Assembly (NCBI GenBank): GCA_016195085.1
Contig: JACQAG010000041.1
Location: 1-58,504 of the forward strand
DNA: 58,504 nt
From: Pseudomonadota bacterium
GTDB taxonomy: Bacteria > Pseudomonadota > Alphaproteobacteria > SHVZ01
Reading direction: 5' to 3'
In this document: positions 2,619 through 14,451 of the stretch, in pieces
How positions within the stretch are numbered: position 1 is the first letter of the stretch
Layout: each line of letters opens with the position of its first letter
Position numbers and translations under genes: made by a program
Notes under the pieces: generated by a model
Databases searched by the model: none
Seen by the model: only the letters and a program-made list of their open reading frames with translations
Told to the model about the DNA's origin: nothing

Positions 2619-3584
2619 TTAGCGTGTGCGGCTCAGCAGCTCTTCCACTGCGCGCTGCACCTCCAGGCCATCGCGAAAGCTGGCGAGCCCGTGCGGCTTG
2701 CCTTCGATCATGTCGGCGACGCCGTCGAGCTGCGCCTTGGCCGAGCGTGGACGCAGCTCGCCCGGGCCGAGATCGACCGGACTCCAGCTTCCGGCCTGCT
2801 CTCTCGACAGGTTGGTCCAGTCATGGAGACGGAGGTGGCCCTTGGCTCCCGATGCCGTCCACGCATTGCTGTCGGCAGCCATGCCGCGCACACCCCCGGT
2901 GAGCCTGACCGGGATCCCCGCGGCGGTGAGGTCGGCGGCGATGGCGGTCTCCGCCGATCGCCCGTCATCGGGATAGGAGGTCTTGCTGGCTTTCACCGCG
3001 AGCGGACCTATGAGGCGTCGCGTGAGAAAGAGAAAATGCGAGACCACCTCGCGTACGAAGCCGCCCTCTTCGCGCAGGCAGAGCCAGCGCGCGTCCGCCT
3101 GCCATGGTCGCGGCCATTCGGCGAAGACGGTCTCGATCTCGATGCGCTCGGGGGTGCCGACGGCGTCCGCTGCGAGCATGTCCTTGAGCGCGAGTGCCGC
3201 GGGCGAGGAAGCGAAGGGGAAGTTGATCGCTGCCCGATGCACCTCGCGCTCGACCCTTGCCACCATCCGGTCGCTCTCTTCGGTGTCGACGCCAAGCGGC
3301 TTCTCGGAGAGCACCGCTTTCCCGGCGTCGAATGCGGTAGCGGCGTGGGTGAGGTGGGTCGAAGGCGGCGAGGCGATGTAGACGCAGGCGACGCCCGGAT
3401 CGGCGACGAGCTCCGAGGAGCCCCTGGCGATGCGGAGCCGGGGATGGCTCTTCTTCGTCCGCGCGCACGCGGCAGGGTTCGGATCCCACACCGCGACCGC
3501 TTCCACCCGAGGATTGAGAGCAAGGCTCGCCAGCATGCGCTGGCCCATGATGCCGAGACCAATGAAGCCGATGCCGTGAGCCAT
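2619..3584 (-). CDS. Gfo/Idh/MocA family oxidoreductase
   Basis: The 321-residue protein starts with a dinucleotide-binding GxGxxG motif (GLGIMG, residues 9-14). It carries the family's EKP motif at 94-96, whose Lys is usually catalytic or substrate-contacting. Family members oxidise or reduce sugars, inositols or related polyols with NAD(P)H. The C-terminal alpha/beta domain follows from about residue 130. It is the first of three such genes lying among the family-5 binding proteins, which suggests catabolism of a sugar-like or opine-like compound; the substrate is not known. Confidence 0.85.
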   Translation of the reverse strand: MAHGIGFIGLGIMGQRMLASLALNPRVEAVAVWDPNPAACARTKKSHPRLRIARGSSELVADPGVACVYIASPPSTHLTHAATAFDAGKAVLSEKPLGVDTEESDRMVARVEREVHRAAINFPFASSPAALALKDMLAADAVGTPERIEIETVFAEWPRPWQADARWLCLREEGGFVREVVSHFLFLTRRLIGPLAVKASKTSYPDDGRSAETAIAADLTAAGIPVRLTGGVRGMAADSNAWTASGAKGHLRLHDWTNLSREQAGSWSPVDLGPGELRPRSAKAQLDGVADMIEGKPHGLASFRDGLEVQRAVEELLSRTR

Positions 3585-3893
3585 GGCAGGGGAAGCCTTT
3601 CCGCGGGGAATGAGGGGAAGCCGCTGCGAGAGGGACCGGGTTGTGCGCTTGTCCTCATTCTAGCCTTGAGCGACATGACCCGCCCGGGGACTCGCTGTCA
3701 GCAACCCAAAATCGTGCTTTTACGCGCGCCGATGACGGTTTCATTCCTTGATACTGGAGCCGGTTCGCAAGGATGCATTGCGCCCGCCCGGCATTGTTTT
3801 AATATCGGAAAAAGCGTTTCTCCGAACATTGCCGGAGCACCGACCGACAGCACCCAAGTGAGGGCCCACAACAACGAGACGAAGGAGGCGTCC
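3585..3893. other. Intergenic region upstream of the first family-5 binding protein
   Basis: These 309 bases separate two divergent genes and contain no convincing gene. A plus-strand open frame runs through the stretch in phase with the downstream gene, but it has no family resemblance, and the signal peptide begins only at 3894. The notable content is the block at 3775-3812, repeated before the next binding-protein gene, and the ribosome-binding site at 3882-3888. Confidence 0.6.
3775..3812 (+). promoter_or_regulatory. Conserved upstream block, putative promoter (copy 1)
   Basis: GCATTGCGCCCG, then 13 variable bases, then TGTTTTAATATCGGAAAA occurs here and, with identical spacing, at 5512-5549 before the paralogous gene. 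It contains AT-rich TTTAAT/TAATAT in otherwise GC-rich DNA, which suits a -10 element. The -35 assignment is uncertain. It lies about 80 bases upstream of the start codon. Confidence 0.45.
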
Positions 3894-5489
3894 ATGTCGC
3901 TTCGGACCTCGGCCTCAGCAACGTTCCGCGGCTCGGTCGCCGCACTGGCGCTTTTCGCCGTCGGCGTCGTGCCCGCCCAAGCCCAGCAGAATGTGCTGCG
4001 CGTGGTGCCATCGGCCGAGCCCAAGGTGTTCGATCCGCACCAATCCGGCGTCAATCAGACCTCCATGCACGTGGCGATGATCTACGACACCTTGTTCACG
4101 TGGGACTCGAATCTCGTCTCCCGCCCGCAGATGGTGGGCAACTACTCGGTCTCCGCCGACAAGCTCAAATACACGTTCACCCTTAGGCCTGGCCTCAAGT
4201 TCCACGACGGCACGCCGGTCACCACCAAGGACGTGCTGCAGACATGGAAGCGGCAATTCGTCCGCGACACGCAGATTCAGAAGCTGGTCGACGCCGTCGC
4301 CTCCACCGACAAGGTCGACGACCAGACCTTCACCTTGACCCTCAAGGAACCCTTCGGCTTCGTCGAGTATCTGATCAGCGGCGCCAAGAGCATCGACGAC
4401 GGCATTCTCCGGGAGAAGGAAGCGCTGACCGATCCCTACACGCCGATCACCGAGATGGTCGGCTCCGGCCCATTCACCTTCAACAAGGCCGAATACGTGC
4501 CCGGCGCCAAGCTCGTCTACGAGAAGAACCGTGCCTACGTGCCGCGCAACGAGCCGCCGGACGGCCAGGCCGGTGGCAAGGTGGTCAAGGTCGATCGCGT
4601 CGAGTGGCTGATCATCCCCGATCCGGCCACGGCCTATGCCGCGCTCAAGAAGGGCGAGGTCGATTTCATCGATTCCGCCACTCTCGATCTGATCAAAACC
4701 GTCGAGAACGATCCCAATATCGTCATCGGCGAAGTCTGGCCAGTCGAAACCTATGGCGTCTTGCGGCCGAACTCGCTGCTACCACCCTTCAACAATGTCA
4801 AAGCTCGGCAAGCGCTGGCTTATATGGTGAATCAGAGCGAGTATCTGGAGCTCGCCTTCGGCGACAAGAAGTGGTGGCACGAGTGCTACGCCTTCTGGGT
4901 CTGCGGCACGCCCAACGGCACCGAGATTGGCTCGGATGCCTACCGCAAGCAGAACCTGGACCTCGCTCGCCAGCTGGTGAAGGAGTCCGGCTACAACGGC
5001 GAACCGGTGGTGATGATCGGCGGTGCCGACATCCCCACCTTCAATGCCTGGACGCAGATGTCCGCCGAACTCCTGAAGAAGATCGGGTTCAAGGTCGATG
5101 TGCAGTTGAGCGACTGGGGGGCGGTCGCAGTCAGGCGCGCCAAGAAGGATCCGGTCTCGCAAGGTGGTTGGAACCTGTTCCATACCAGCGCCAACGGCTC
5201 GCATCTGGCGAGCCCGCTCACCAGCCCGTCCACCATCATGACCTGCGATGGCAAGAACTTCGTCGGCTGGCCCTGCGACGAGGTGGTCGAGAAGATCCGC
5301 GATCAATACGTGCGCGAGACCGACCCGGCGAAGCAGAAGGCGCTCCTGGAGCAGATGCACAGGCGGCTGTGGGAGGTGGTCCCCTATGCGATGTTGGGCC
5401 AGTTCCGCCAGCCCTTCCTGTGGCGGAAGAACGTGACCGGCGTGCTCAAGACCGGCACGCTGGTCTTCTGGAACATCGACAAGAGCTGA
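3894..5489 (+). CDS. ABC transporter substrate-binding protein, family 5 (copy 1 of tandem pair)
   Basis: This 531-residue periplasmic binding protein belongs to the peptide/nickel/opine family (SBP_bac_5). A signal peptide covers about residues 1-30, with AQA-Q as the likely cleavage site. The mature part shows YDTLF, LKYTFTLRPGLKFHDGTPVT and GSGPF, all typical of the family. The start is chosen at 3894 because AAGGAGG sits five bases upstream and the signal peptide begins there. It is about 85% identical by eye to the next gene, a tandem duplicate. No permease or ATPase gene is adjacent, so it must use a transporter encoded elsewhere. The ligand is unknown. Confidence 0.9.
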   Translation: MSLRTSASATFRGSVAALALFAVGVVPAQAQQNVLRVVPSAEPKVFDPHQSGVNQTSMHVAMIYDTLFTWDSNLVSRPQMVGNYSVSADKLKYTFTLRPGLKFHDGTPVTTKDVLQTWKRQFVRDTQIQKLVDAVASTDKVDDQTFTLTLKEPFGFVEYLISGAKSIDDGILREKEALTDPYTPITEMVGSGPFTFNKAEYVPGAKLVYEKNRAYVPRNEPPDGQAGGKVVKVDRVEWLIIPDPATAYAALKKGEVDFIDSATLDLIKTVENDPNIVIGEVWPVETYGVLRPNSLLPPFNNVKARQALAYMVNQSEYLELAFGDKKWWHECYAFWVCGTPNGTEIGSDAYRKQNLDLARQLVKESGYNGEPVVMIGGADIPTFNAWTQMSAELLKKIGFKVDVQLSDWGAVAVRRAKKDPVSQGGWNLFHTSANGSHLASPLTSPSTIMTCDGKNFVGWPCDEVVEKIRDQYVRETDPAKQKALLEQMHRRLWEVVPYAMLGQFRQPFLWRKNVTGVLKTGTLVFWNIDKS

Positions 5490-5511
5490 CGATGCCTACA
5501 ACTCCAACGAC

Positions 5512-5549
5512 GCATTGCGCCCGGCCAGCTTTGTTTTAATATCGGAAAA
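5512..5549 (+). promoter_or_regulatory. Conserved upstream block, putative promoter (copy 2)
   Basis: This is the second copy of the block at 3775-3812: GCATTGCGCCCGG, a variable stretch, then TTGTTTTAATATCGGAAAA with the same internal spacing. It begins 22 bases after the stop of the first binding-protein gene. The duplication therefore carried its own control region, and the second gene is probably transcribed independently. Confidence 0.45.
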
Positions 5550-5619
5550 TTCTGTCGCCGACGACCGCCCCGCCCAGTCAGCCAAGGCGGGCCGGATCGA
5601 CGCCCATAAGGAGGCTTTC

Positions 5620-7212
5620 ATGTCCCGTCAGACCTCGGCCTCGATGGTCCCGCTTATCGCCGGCTTCCTCGCCGCTGCTGTGCTCGCACCCATGGAGGCC
5701 GCCGCCCAGCAGAAAGTGCTGAAGGTGGTGCCGATGTCGGAGCCCAAGGTGCTCGACATGCACCAATCGGCGGTCAACCCGACCTCGATGCACGTGGCCA
5801 TGGTCTATGACACGCTGTTCACGGTGGATGCGGACCTGATCGCCCGCCCGCAGATGGTCGGCAACTACACGGTCTCCGCCGACAAGCTCAAATACACCTT
5901 CACCCTCAGGCCCGGCCTCAAGTTCCACGACGGCACGCCGGTCACATCCAAGGACGTGATCCAGACCTGGAAGCGGCAATTCGTCCGCGACACCCAGATC
6001 GGCAAGCTGGCCGAGGCGGTGGCGTCCTACGACAAGGTCGACGACAACACCTTCACGCTCACGCTGAAGGAGCCCTTCGGCTTCGTCGAGTATCTCATCA
6101 GCGGCACCAAGAGCATCGAAGACGGGATCATGCGCGAGAAGGAGGCGCTGACCGACCCCTACACCCCGGTCACCACCATGATCGGCTCCGGCCCGTTCAC
6201 CTTCAACACCGCCGAATACGTAATGGGCGCCAAGCTGGTCTACGACAAGAATCGCGCCTACGTGCCCCGCAACGAGCCGCCGAGCGGCCAGGCCGGCGGC
6301 AAGGTGGTCAAGGTGGACCGGGTGGAGTACGTGATCATTCCCGATGCAGCGACGGCCTATGCGGCCTTGAGGAAGGGCGAGATCGACTTCATCGACGCCG
6401 CTTCGCTCGATCTCATCAAGACCGTCGAGAACGATCCCAACATCGTCATCGGCGAGGTCTGGCCGGTCGAGACCTATGGTGTACTCAGGCCCAACTCGCT
6501 GCATCCGCCCTTCAACAACGTGAAGGCGCGCCAGGCTCTCGCCCATATGGTGCAGCAGAGCGACTATCTCGAGCTCGCGTTCGGCGACAAGAAATGGTGG
6601 CACGAGTGCTACGCCTTCTGGGTCTGCGGCACGCCCAACGGCACCGAGGCGGGCTCCGAGGCCTACCGCAAGCAGAATCTCGATCTCGCCCGGCAGCTGG
6701 TGAAAGAATCCGGCTATGACGGCAAGCCGGTGGTGATTATCGGCGGCGCCGACATCCCCGCCTACAATGCCTGGTCGCAGCTCACCGCCAGCCTCCTGAA
6801 GCAGATCGGCTTCAACGTCGACATGCAGATGACCGATTGGGGTGTGGTCGCGGTCCGGCGCGCGAAGAAGGATCCGCCGGCGCAGGGCGGTTGGAACCTG
6901 TTCCACACCAACGCCAACGGCGCGCATCTGGCGAGCCCGCTCACCAGCCCGTCCACGATCATGACCTGCGACGGCAAGAACTTCGTCGGCTGGCCCTGCG
7001 ACGAGGTGGTGGAGAAGATGCGCGACCAGTACGTCCGCGAGACCGACCCGGCGAAGCAGAAGGTGCTGGTCGAGCAGATGCACAAGCGTCTCTGGGAGGT
7101 GATGCCCTATGTGACCTTGGGCCAGTTCCGGCAGCCCTTCCTGTGGCGCAAAAACATCACCGGCGTGCTCAAGACCGGCACGCTGGTCTTCTGGAACATC
7201 GACAAGAGCTGA
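5620..7212 (+). CDS. ABC transporter substrate-binding protein, family 5 (copy 2 of tandem pair)
   Basis: The 530-residue protein is the close paralogue of the preceding gene. Long blocks are identical, including the region from LKYTFTLRPG to VTSKDV and the C-terminal GTLVFWNIDKS; the signal peptides differ. Cleavage is likely after AAA at residue 29. AAGGAGG at 5608-5614 lies five bases before the ATG and fixes the start. Differences cluster in the signal peptide and in scattered mature positions, so the two copies may have diverged in ligand preference or expression. No transporter subunits are nearby. Confidence 0.9.
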   Translation: MSRQTSASMVPLIAGFLAAAVLAPMEAAAQQKVLKVVPMSEPKVLDMHQSAVNPTSMHVAMVYDTLFTVDADLIARPQMVGNYTVSADKLKYTFTLRPGLKFHDGTPVTSKDVIQTWKRQFVRDTQIGKLAEAVASYDKVDDNTFTLTLKEPFGFVEYLISGTKSIEDGIMREKEALTDPYTPVTTMIGSGPFTFNTAEYVMGAKLVYDKNRAYVPRNEPPSGQAGGKVVKVDRVEYVIIPDAATAYAALRKGEIDFIDAASLDLIKTVENDPNIVIGEVWPVETYGVLRPNSLHPPFNNVKARQALAHMVQQSDYLELAFGDKKWWHECYAFWVCGTPNGTEAGSEAYRKQNLDLARQLVKESGYDGKPVVIIGGADIPAYNAWSQLTASLLKQIGFNVDMQMTDWGVVAVRRAKKDPPAQGGWNLFHTNANGAHLASPLTSPSTIMTCDGKNFVGWPCDEVVEKMRDQYVRETDPAKQKVLVEQMHKRLWEVMPYVTLGQFRQPFLWRKNITGVLKTGTLVFWNIDKS

Positions 7213-7249
7213 CAACCGCGTCGTTCATCACGGAGTCGTAGAGACGATT

Positions 7250-7375
7250 GAACCGCGGAGTTCGCGGAGAAGAACGCAGAGAACGCCGAGAATAGTTCGC
7301 AGCGCGCGGCGCGGGAGCAAACACCTCCGCAAACTCCGCGCTCCTCAGCGATCTCTGCGGTTTTCTTCTGCCTCG
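7250..7375. repeat. Dispersed CGGAG/CTCCG-type intergenic repeat
   Basis: The segment between the second binding-protein gene and the first hydrolase is made of CGCGGAG and CGCAGAG units. These are followed by their near-complements (CTCCGCG, CTCAGCG, CTCTGCGG), giving an imperfect inverted repeat. The 13-mer GCGCTCCTCAGCG at 7338-7350 recurs exactly at 56008-56020 inside the larger element near 56 kb, so the two belong to one repeat family. Confidence 0.6.
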
Positions 7376-7408: not shown

Positions 7409-8209
7409 ATGACGAAAGCCGTTTGGGACAAGCGGGCGGTCGCCAATGGGCCGGCGCGCGTCGAATACCGGATCGCCGGCAAGGGCAAGACCATCGTCTC
7501 GCTGCCAGGGCTCGGGCGCACGACGGAAGACCACCTTCCCTTGGGCGAGCGGCTGATCGCCGCCGGCTACCGCGTCGTCTTGCCGATGCCCCGCGGCATG
7601 GGCGGCAGCACCGGGCCGCTGACAGGGATTACGCTCCACGATCTTGCCGCCGACGTGGCCAAGGTGATCGAGGCTGTGGGCGACATCCCGGCGATCCTCT
7701 GCGGCCACGCCTATGGCAACCGCGTCGCCCGGCTGATCGCGACCGACCGGCCGGATCTGGTGTCCCACCTCGTTCTGTTCACCGCGAGCGGCAAGGTCGC
7801 CGGCACGCCCGAGGTGGTGGCGGCGATCGAGCGGGTGAAGAACCCGGCGCTGCCGATCGAGGAGCGCCGCAAGGCAGCGCTCGTCTCCATGGTGGGGCCC
7901 ACGCGCGACCCCACGGTCTGGCTCGACGGCTGGAACGACCCGATCGCCAAGGCCTGCCAGGCAGCGCTCCGCGCCGTGCCGACCGAGGAATGGTGGACCG
8001 GCGGCAAGGCCAAGGTCCTGGTGATCCAAGGCCTCGCCGACAAGTCCTCGCCGCCGGTCAATGGTCGGATGCTGAAGGAAGAGCTCGGCGAGCGCTGCAC
8101 CCTGGTCGAGCTGGACGGTGTGGGCCATTCGGTGCCGGTGGAGGCGCCGGACGAGGTCGCCGCCGCGATGATCGCGTATCTCAAGAAGCAGCATCTCGCC
8201 GCGGCGTGA
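7409..8209 (+). CDS. Alpha/beta-hydrolase-fold protein with Ala at the nucleophile position (copy A)
   Basis: The 266-residue protein has the alpha/beta-hydrolase layout: the oxyanion-side LPGLGRT, a nucleophile elbow, an Asp in QGLAD (D211) and a His in GVGHS (H240). The elbow reads G-H-A-Y-G at residues 99-103, so the usual Ser/Cys/Asp nucleophile is Ala101. The paralogue immediately downstream has the same substitution. The protein is therefore either a non-hydrolytic member (binding or lyase-like chemistry without a covalent intermediate) or a pseudoenzyme. It sits between family-5 binding-protein genes, so its ligand may be related to their cargo. Confidence 0.8.
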   Translation: MTKAVWDKRAVANGPARVEYRIAGKGKTIVSLPGLGRTTEDHLPLGERLIAAGYRVVLPMPRGMGGSTGPLTGITLHDLAADVAKVIEAVGDIPAILCGHAYGNRVARLIATDRPDLVSHLVLFTASGKVAGTPEVVAAIERVKNPALPIEERRKAALVSMVGPTRDPTVWLDGWNDPIAKACQAALRAVPTEEWWTGGKAKVLVIQGLADKSSPPVNGRMLKEELGERCTLVELDGVGHSVPVEAPDEVAAAMIAYLKKQHLAAA

Positions 8210-8229
8210 TGAAAGGCTGCTGAACGACC

Positions 8230-9018
8230 ATGGCTGAGAAGATCGCCTGGGAGCATCGAACCGTCGCCGCGGAGCACGCGCGGATCGCGCTGCGCGTTGC
8301 CGGTAGTGGCAAGACGGTGGTGATGCTGCCGGGTCTAGGCCGCAGCTCCGATGATCTCTTGCCCTTGGCCGAGCGGGTGATCGGGGCGGGCTATCGCGTC
8401 GCACTGCCGATGCCGCGCGGCCTCGGGGCAAGCCAAGGACCGATGGCGGGCATCACCCTCCACGACCTCGCCGCCGACGTGGCCGCGGCCATCGCCGCGC
8501 TCGGCAAGAGCCCGGTCGTGCTGGTCGGCCAGGCCTTCGGCAACCGCGTCGCCCGCATGCTGGCCGCCGATCGGCCGGAGCTGATCTCCGCCGTGGTGCT
8601 GCTCGGCGCCAGCGGCAAGGTGGCGGGCGGGCCGGAGCTGCCGGCCGCGAACGAGCGCGCCAAGAACCCGGCGCTGCCGCTGGCCGAGCGGCTGGCGGCC
8701 GCGCGGCTGACCATGGTCGGCCCCGGCCGCGACCCCACGCCCTGGCTTGACGGCTGGAACGAACCGGTCGCCAAGGTCTATCTGGCCGCAGCCGCGGCCA
8801 CGCCGATGGACGAATGGTGGACCGCCGGCACGGCGCGCGTGCTGATTGTACAGGGCCTCGCCGACGTCATGGCGCCGCCTGCCAATGGCAGGATGCTCTT
8901 GGGCGAGCTGGGCAGCCGGGGCAGCCTGGTCGAGCTCGAAGGCATCGGCCACTCGCTCCCGGTCGAGGCACCCGATGAGGTTGCCGCGGTGGTCATCGAC
9001 TTCTTGCGCAAGCTGTAG
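8230..9018 (+). CDS. Alpha/beta-hydrolase-fold protein with Ala at the nucleophile position (copy B)
   Basis: This 262-residue tandem paralogue of the preceding gene starts 20 bases after its stop. The elbow is G-Q-A-F-G (residues 100-104, Ala102), followed by NRVARM. Asp212 in QGLAD and His241 in GIGHS keep the acid and base positions. Shared segments such as GLGR, LPMPRG and DEWWT/EEWWT show recent duplication. Retention of Ala in both copies, with Asp and His kept, argues for a selected property and against random decay. The reaction, if any, is unknown. Confidence 0.8.
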   Translation: MAEKIAWEHRTVAAEHARIALRVAGSGKTVVMLPGLGRSSDDLLPLAERVIGAGYRVALPMPRGLGASQGPMAGITLHDLAADVAAAIAALGKSPVVLVGQAFGNRVARMLAADRPELISAVVLLGASGKVAGGPELPAANERAKNPALPLAERLAAARLTMVGPGRDPTPWLDGWNEPVAKVYLAAAAATPMDEWWTAGTARVLIVQGLADVMAPPANGRMLLGELGSRGSLVELEGIGHSLPVEAPDEVAAVVIDFLRKL

Positions 9019-10858: not shown

Positions 10859-11863
10859 ATGCCTCGATCACATCCGATCCGCGTCGGCATCATCGGCATG
10901 GGCCAGTTCGGCCGGCTGCATGCAAAGGCTCTCGGCGAGCTGGGCGGGCGCGCCAGGCTGGCCGCGGTCGCGTCGGGATCGTTTGCAGAGGCGGAGAGAG
11001 TGGCGGCCGATTTGGGTGCCAAGGCGTATCGCGATTGGCGGGCGGTTCTGGCCGAGGTCGATGCGGTCTGCATCGCCACGCCGCACGATCTCCATGGCGA
11101 GATGACGCTGGCGGCGATCGAAGCGGGATGCGCGGTGCTTCTGGAGAAGCCGATGGCGCCGAGCCTAGCCCAATGCGATGCGATACTGGACGGGCTTCGC
11201 GGCCGCCCCGTGCCGTTCACGGTGGCGCAGCCCACCCGTTTCATTCCGGCCTATGCGGAGGCTGTCGCTCGCATCCGCTCGGGTGTCATCGGCGAGCCCA
11301 TCCATGTGCGCGCGCCGATGATCAAGGATTTCACCTTAAAGGCGCGCAAGGACTGGCACCTGGCCCAAACCCGGGGCGGCGGCATGTGGATGACCAATGC
11401 CGTCCATCTCGTCGATCGCCTGGTGCTCGCCTTCGGCCGCATGCCGATGTCGGTCAGCGCCAGCTTAGGCACGGGCTTCCACACCGGGCTCGCCGTCGAC
11501 GATATCGGGGTGGCGCTCTACCGGTTCTGGGGCGGCGGCACCGGCATCGCCGAGGCCGCCGGCTACCGGGTGGGCGCGCCGGATCACTGGACGGTCATCG
11601 TCGGCACCGAAGGGGCGCTCCGCTGCGAGCCGGGCCTCGGCCTCGAGCTCGGCCGCGACAATGCCTGGCAGACCGCGTTTGCCGCCGATCCAGCCTGGCT
11701 CGCCAAAGCGCTGGCGGCGGAATGGACCTCCTTCCTCGATCACGTCGAGGGCGGGCCGTCGCCGGTCAGCGCGCTCGAGGGCCGCAACGTCATGGCTGCC
11801 GTCATTGCCGCCGAGGAGGCGGCGGCGGAGAACGCCGTGGTCAGGGTCCCGCTTCGCGAATAG
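10859..11863 (+). CDS. Gfo/Idh/MocA family oxidoreductase
   Basis: The 334-residue protein has the NAD(P)-binding motif GMGQFG at residues 13-18 and EKP at 96-98. These are followed by the C-terminal substrate domain with GGGMWMTNAVHLVDRL, the usual GGG...D/H region. It probably oxidises or reduces a sugar- or polyol-like compound. GGAGAGG lies a few bases before the ATG. It lies between family-5 binding-protein genes and is convergent with the next one, with a 6 bp gap, so it ends its transcription unit. Confidence 0.85.
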   Translation: MPRSHPIRVGIIGMGQFGRLHAKALGELGGRARLAAVASGSFAEAERVAADLGAKAYRDWRAVLAEVDAVCIATPHDLHGEMTLAAIEAGCAVLLEKPMAPSLAQCDAILDGLRGRPVPFTVAQPTRFIPAYAEAVARIRSGVIGEPIHVRAPMIKDFTLKARKDWHLAQTRGGGMWMTNAVHLVDRLVLAFGRMPMSVSASLGTGFHTGLAVDDIGVALYRFWGGGTGIAEAAGYRVGAPDHWTVIVGTEGALRCEPGLGLELGRDNAWQTAFAADPAWLAKALAAEWTSFLDHVEGGPSPVSALEGRNVMAAVIAAEEAAAENAVVRVPLRE

Positions 11864-13482: not shown

Positions 13483-14451
13483 TCAGGCCTTCGCGGCCGC
13501 ATAGATCCGATCGATGAGCATCGCCGCGGCGGCGCAGTCCGACAAGCTCGCCACCGGCGGCCGTCCTGCTTGGAAATCGGCGAGCATGGTCAGAACGAAC
13601 GAGCGATAGCCCGGCATGTCGGTCTTGGTCTCGGTGAGCTCGCCATTGGGCCAGCGCACGGCGAGCAAGCCCTTGCGTTCGATCATGGTGGCGCCGGTGG
13701 CGGCGATCCGCCACTCGAAATCGCCGCCGCCGGCCGCATAGCTGTAGCCGGCCTCCAGGGTCACGATTGGGCCGCCCTCGACCTGGAGGAGTGCGGTGGC
13801 GAATTCCTCGACCGGCAAATGATAGGCACGGTGGCTGAGCTGTGCTGCTTGCACCTTGACCATGTGACCGTCAGCCAAGGTGAGCACGGCATCGGTCGCA
13901 TGGATGCCGAGATTGCGCAACGGGCCGCCCCCCGATATGACCGGGTCCAGCATCCAGGGCACGCCCAGATCCCGGTAGCGCTCTGGCGGGCCGTTGTTGA
14001 GGCGGAAATGCGCGTGCATGACCGTGCCGAGACGCTCCTCGGCCTGGAGCCGGCGATAGACCGCCCAGATGGCGAGGTGCCGGTTCGCAAGGGCGGCCGC
14101 GGCGAAGACCCCCGCCGAGGCGGCCGCGGAAGCAAGGTCCGTTGACTGGGCGCCGCTGAGCCCCATCGGCTTTTCCAGCAGGAAGGGCAGCCGGCGCTCG
14201 AGGACCGGCGCCAGCGTTGCCTTGACGCGGTCGTGGCGGGGCAGCACGAAGACGAAGTCTGGGCGGGTGCGATCGAGCAGCGCTTCGGTAGAGGACTCGA
14301 AGGCGAGGCCGAGCTTCTGCGCCTGGAGGGCACCTGCCGTGGCGTCGCCATCGCTGCTGCCGACCACACGGTGGCCGAGTTCGCCTAAGATTTGGGCATA
14401 AGTGGGAGCATGCCAATGGGCCACCCCCAGAATCGCAATTGCCAGAGGCAT
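13483..14451 (-). CDS. Gfo/Idh/MocA family oxidoreductase
   Basis: The 322-residue protein has a divergent N-terminal nucleotide-binding turn (ILGVAHWHAPTY). It has a normal EKP at residues 93-95 and the C-terminal GGGPLRNLGIHATD segment of the family. It is likely a dehydrogenase acting on a sugar-like substrate. It precedes the fourth family-5 binding-protein gene in the same direction. The N-terminal His-rich turn departs from the usual GxGxxG, so cofactor handling may differ. Confidence 0.8.
   Translation of the reverse strand: MPLAIAILGVAHWHAPTYAQILGELGHRVVGSSDGDATAGALQAQKLGLAFESSTEALLDRTRPDFVFVLPRHDRVKATLAPVLERRLPFLLEKPMGLSGAQSTDLASAAASAGVFAAAALANRHLAIWAVYRRLQAEERLGTVMHAHFRLNNGPPERYRDLGVPWMLDPVISGGGPLRNLGIHATDAVLTLADGHMVKVQAAQLSHRAYHLPVEEFATALLQVEGGPIVTLEAGYSYAAGGGDFEWRIAATGATMIERKGLLAVRWPNGELTETKTDMPGYRSFVLTMLADFQAGRPPVASLSDCAAAAMLIDRIYAAAKA

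Follow-up and report, generated by a model that had tools for sequence, protein, structure and literature searches.

Two adjacent genes of the alpha/beta-hydrolase (ABH) fold, whose products are here termed P1 and P2, belong to a clade in which the serine nucleophile is absent from every sampled member whilst the Asp and His of the catalytic triad are conserved, and they are co-inherited with one lineage of SBP_bac_5 (family-5) receptors. On balance, P1 and P2 are likely to be cytoplasmic enzymes that work without a nucleophile, in which a His–Asp pair would provide general acid–base catalysis on a compound imported via the partner receptor. More tentatively, it is proposed that they represent a widespread unnamed family, recognizable by a GH-A-FGNRVAR elbow and a PSLGR oxyanion loop, whose His–Asp reaction would be new to ABHs, with one lineage serving the compound of a specific SBP_bac_5 protein. 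The usual label given to an ABH protein is esterase or simply ‘alpha/beta hydrolase’, and automatic annotation misses a Ser-less clade of this kind; a clade that lacks the Ser and keeps the Asp and His offers a clear example, open to experiment, of how an old catalytic fold has been redeployed for chemistry that needs no nucleophile, and the partner receptor offers a route to the substrate, as the ligand of the receptor would identify the compound to offer to the enzyme. The relevant features of the window (the whole stretch of DNA analysed, 58,504 nucleotides) are as follows.

2619-3584: Gfo/Idh/MocA-type oxidoreductase gene, interspersed with receptor genes, as are the two below
3891..5489, + strand: second SBP_bac_5 gene, a tandem duplicate 83% identical to the partner
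5620..7212, + strand: SBP_bac_5 gene directly upstream of P1 (196 bp gap), the partner inherited together with the ABH genes
7409..8209, + strand: P1, ABH-fold protein of 266 aa, elbow GHAYG
7709-7711, + strand: codon for Ala101 of P1
8039-8041, + strand: codon for Asp211 of P1
8126-8128, + strand: codon for His240 of P1
8230..9018, + strand: P2, ABH-fold protein of 262 aa, elbow GQAFG, starting 20 bp after P1
8533-8535, + strand: codon for Ala102 of P2
8863-8865, + strand: codon for Asp212 of P2
8950-8952, + strand: codon for His241 of P2
9147..10736, + strand: third SBP_bac_5 gene, downstream of P2 and 58% identical to the partner, of uncertain membership of the unit
10859-11863: Gfo/Idh/MocA-type oxidoreductase gene
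13483-14451: Gfo/Idh/MocA-type oxidoreductase gene

P1 and P2 are 64% identical, and both exceed the Pfam cut-offs for the ABH families PF12697, PF00561 and PF12146. In a profile alignment, the elbow Ser of Rv0554/BpoC (3e3a) lines up with the Ala of both proteins, and its Asp and His with their Asp and His; Asp211/His240 of P1 and Asp212/His241 of P2 occupy invariant columns in the family alignments. AlphaFold2 models of the two proteins (mean pLDDT 96.7 for P1 and 96.5 for P2) both have the ABH fold. In each, the Ala occupies the elbow where strand 5 turns into the following helix, and the loops that follow strands 7 and 8 carry the Asp and the His, respectively. The open reading frames, Pfam matches, Rv0554 alignment and models thus agree with the preliminary description of this DNA, in which tandem ABH genes at 7409-9018 were said to carry Ala at both elbows with the Asp and His kept, and for which modelling of both structures had been suggested as a check. 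Neither protein has the Ser, Cys or Asp elbow nucleophile of a canonical Ser hydrolase, both having Ala; the other two triad positions, an acid behind strand 7 and a His behind strand 8, are filled in 56/56 readable family members. A structure search with the P2 model matched ABH structures at Z 25.8-27.8 (rmsd 2.6-3.3 over 232-258 residues), and because these were general ABH enzymes at nearly tied scores the search does not point to a reaction; RutD, a putative 3-aminoacrylate hydrolase of pyrimidine catabolism, is absent among the 50 matches listed.

Homologues were collected from 60 relatives, from 385 genomes of the class, by profile from 398 genomes of the phylum and from a species-representative contig collection. 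In the phylum search, family members scored at least 196 bits among the matches listed, the next match scored 97 bits and reads GTSLG, and nothing fell between. The 57 sampled members span Proteobacteria, Acidimicrobiia, Rokubacteria, Myxococcota and Cyanobacteria, and 51 of them carry Ala at the elbow, three Asp (L047, L051, L054), two Gly (both Bosea) and one Thr, with Ser in none (0/57). In a careful tree of 76 rows, which includes close Ser-type ABHs and omits five rows on long branches, including the Thr member, the family forms one side of a branch supported at 100/100, and a quick tree of all 81 rows gives the same division between family and outsiders (SH-aLRT 99). No Ser-bearing homologue was found inside the clade, either in the phylum profile search or in the trees, and eight further members on plasmids (Cupriavidus, Variovorax, Rhizobium, Bosea, Thioclava, Rhodococcus) all have the Ala, Asp and His. 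Since the clade lacks Ser and the plasmid copies agree, the Ala of P1 and P2 was inherited, and the Ser was not lost twice: judged from the trees, it is ancestral to a large clade and passed to both copies, which are sisters (support 100/97) and the product of a lineage-specific local duplication. An independent double loss of Ser was rejected on these two grounds.

Other elbow sequences were also seen. Two fragmentary Desulfarculaceae matches read GYEFG. In a mostly DUF1254-linked subclade (L045, L047, L051, L054), the Ala has become Asp in three members (GNDFG) and Leu stands in place of Arg38, which may mark a change of chemistry within the family. In Microvirga, a second, unrelated ABH gene with a GIASG elbow (L038:5746-6585) directly follows a family member.

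The residues that are conserved alongside the Ala give the family a signature of its own. In P2 numbering, Asp212 and His241 are found together in 56/56 members that cover these positions, Arg109 in 57/57, Asn105 in 53/57, Arg38 in 52/57, Arg106 in 51/57, Trp172 in 54/57, Gln208 in 52/57 and Trp176 in 51/57, and the usual HG oxyanion motif is replaced by P-S/G or A-S/G. Of 24 related outsiders, 22 have Ser; a single one of the 24 has Arg109, and the residues listed for this group do not include Arg38, Asn105 or Arg106. By this comparison, the near-invariant Arg38, Arg106 and Arg109 mark the family off from other ABHs. The family has no Pfam or NCBIfam model of its own that P1 and P2 pass at family level, a literature search for the elbow string returned nothing relevant, and in the literature searched the family and its chemistry appear to be uncharacterised, nucleophile-free ABHs being already known as a kind.

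Pairwise dN/dS between close members (NG86) is 0.09-0.26, and the true values are probably lower, as high-GC third positions tend to make this method understate dS; the value of 0.41 between P1 and P2 is not reliable because dS is underestimated in these high-GC genes. These figures exclude decay for the family, and the trait, as read from its sequences, is real, ancient and selected, with the family under purifying selection. Simple decay, in which P1 and P2 would be inactive leftovers of a hydrolase duplication, is scarcely credible: a relative with its ABH gene split over two frames (G004 C157) is of the kind it predicts, but it is already contradicted by the ancestral Ala, by the dN/dS and by the full-length, high-confidence folds of both models. 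The preliminary description had proposed that Ala might define a clade and had named interspersed Ser homologues or relaxed dN/dS as signs of decay; such a clade was found and neither sign was. Purifying selection on the trait is supported, but not the argument drawn there from the same loss in both copies, the Ala being ancestral and then duplicated.

The genome G000 (4.8 Mb) has nearly a hundred SBP_bac_5 genes (99 matches), apparently a large expansion, and for this reason adjacency by itself carries little weight. In the bacterial family of the source and in Bosea, the ABH gene lies 2-196 bp behind an SBP_bac_5 gene. When the partner receptor was compared with 238 close paralogues in six relatives (26-49 per relative), its top six matches (59-72% identity) were exactly the ABH-adjacent receptors, found in G001-G004 (G001 and G003 contributing two apiece) with a spacing of usually 2-10 bp, and the two relatives without an ABH gene had only weaker matches to it. 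The odds of such co-inheritance by chance were put at 3e-11, a figure that is only indicative as related genomes were treated as independent. The SBP–ABH pair also occurs in two Bosea genomes, and one ABH gene among the relatives, in G002 (C67, L119), has no receptor gene called beside it. By these comparisons, the partner SBP_bac_5 lineage is co-inherited with the ABH genes and the receptor link is real. No ABC peptide-type permease gene was identified beside the genes of the window. In G004, an ABH gene split over two reading frames lies beside a truncated receptor gene (C157, L121:988-1832) and another receptor gene has an in-frame TAG (C180), either of which could be decay or an assembly error. 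Between the receptor gene and P1 (7240-7385 in the window) lies an inverted-repeat element whose arms are 7254-7269 and 7325-7340; the genome has four further, partial copies of it.

By eye, neither P1 nor P2 shows an evident signal peptide, and the ligand would therefore be encountered after its import. Binding of the cargo of the neighbouring family-5 receptors had been suggested previously as a role; the receptor link survives in the co-inheritance, and a pure cargo-binding role is disfavoured because the Asp and His are universal and because P1 and P2 lack an evident signal peptide, the receptors being periplasmic. A related explanation is that P1 and P2 are non-catalytic proteins in which the imported compound is kept in the ABH pocket for signalling or buffering, in the manner of GID1- and KAI2-type receptors. 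Against an enzymatic role, the retained His and Asp might equally help to bind a ligand, as they do in plant hormone receptors of the ABH fold. The absence of the canonical Ser nucleophile from every member and the consistent receptor-gene neighbourhood speak for such a sensor, but it is unlikely, as binding alone would not need both Asp and His to be kept across phyla and many members have catabolic neighbours (flavoprotein oxygenases, sulfatases, dehydrogenases).

Several known ABHs offer precedents for part of this chemistry. Tomato methylketone synthase 1 is an ABH of the plant methylesterase lineage that has Ala for Ser and acts as a decarboxylase via its His. RutD shares with P1 and P2 the fold, the elbow Ala, the kept Asp and His and a catabolic pathway, and both solved RutD (3v48) and the RutD of locus L107/L215, whose identity was checked at 350.5 bits against the TIGR03611 cut-off of 238.5, read GHALG. 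RutD nevertheless falls outside the family clade in both trees and lacks the GNRVAR and PSLGR signatures, and P1 and P2 score 33.9 and 36.9 bits against the same model. Because the natural elbow residue of RutD, itself annotated as an aminoacrylate hydrolase, is Ala, a ‘non-hydrolytic’ role, as proposed in the preliminary description, does not follow from the Ala. Rv0554/BpoC (3e3a, 7ld8) is the top solved match by sequence and profile, but has the elbow Ser (GVSMG). The 3-oxoadipate enol-lactonase PcaD has the same general fold, with Ser as its nucleophile, and is among the top curated families for 50/50 members scanned, whilst P1 and P2 score 60.6 and 53.4 bits against the TIGR02427 cut-off of 255.85. 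Membership of the RutD and PcaD families was ruled out by these scores.

This weak enol-lactonase similarity is one of the points in favour of a hidden nucleophile (a relocated Ser, Cys or Asp, or substrate assistance) that would allow ordinary ester or lactone hydrolysis. Others are the elbow Asp of three members and an Acidimicrobiia locus (L027) where the stop of the ABH gene (4932-5747) overlaps the start of a gene for a BVMO-like flavoprotein (5747-7360), the products of which would be esters or lactones; the top NCBIfam match of this flavoprotein is a pentalenolactone-type BVMO, below its cut-off, and L036 and L037 have the same neighbour order. The strongly conserved Ser, Cys, Asp and Glu listed for the family are only Asp42, Ser68, Asp83, Asp212 and Glu246, and with Asp42 alone being family-specific and the rest common in Ser-type ABHs, a hidden nucleophile is distinctly unlikely.

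The cofactor-independent dioxygenases HOD and AqdC use a His–Asp general base and can dispense with the nucleophile, as the elbow of AqdC is naturally Ala and HOD S101A retains kcat (PMC10548524). On this precedent, the His–Asp pair of P1 and P2 might deprotonate a substrate with which O2 then reacts beside the hydrophobic elbow. In HOD the triad acid is Asp126, 25 residues past the elbow (PMC3961685), and lies after strand 6, whereas the acid of P1 and P2 lies after strand 7. Positions 126-128 of P2 are acidic in no family member, which rules out membership of the HOD group, and P1 and P2 gave no significant match to a dioxygenase model; an oxygenase of this kind is accordingly very unlikely. 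P1 and P2 may work like RutD or HOD/AqdC, yet they are assigned to none of these.

The universal Asp–His and absent Ser nucleophile point to acid–base catalysis in a nucleophile-free enzyme. In the proposed mechanism, the partner receptor would capture a small molecule for uptake through an ABC permease; the ABH would bind the imported molecule, with the small Ala or Gly of the elbow leaving space by the backbone oxyanion hole for substrate, water or O2, and the Asp-held His would take or give a proton with no covalent acyl-enzyme. Speculatively, a carboxylate could be bound by Arg38, which lies in the loop found in place of the HG motif. The reaction would most likely be hydrolysis of an activated bond (an enamine or imine, as in RutD, or an enol-lactone) or else a lyase-type reaction or a decarboxylation. 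As Ala, Gly, Thr and Asp all occur at the elbow, the chemistry may vary among subclades, and the function may be non-uniform because neighbours differ between subclades.

Elsewhere in the family, Caulobacterales-type members lie beside paired sulfatases and an acyl-CoA dehydrogenase, and others beside DUF1254/DUF1214 proteins, tripartite tricarboxylate-transporter receptors or short-chain dehydrogenases; several members from these non-SBP_bac_5 contexts have signal-peptide or lipoprotein-like starts. The thread common to the contexts of the family is small-molecule catabolism and uptake, with differing chemistry partners. The Gfo/Idh/MocA-type genes of the window hint at a sugar-like or polyol ligand. 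Around a copy in the relatives (L118:5411-15093), there are genes of the diaminopropionate ammonia-lyase type, for an S9 peptidase, for a DUF2817 protein and of the enolase superfamily, which suggests amino-acid-derived substrates there.
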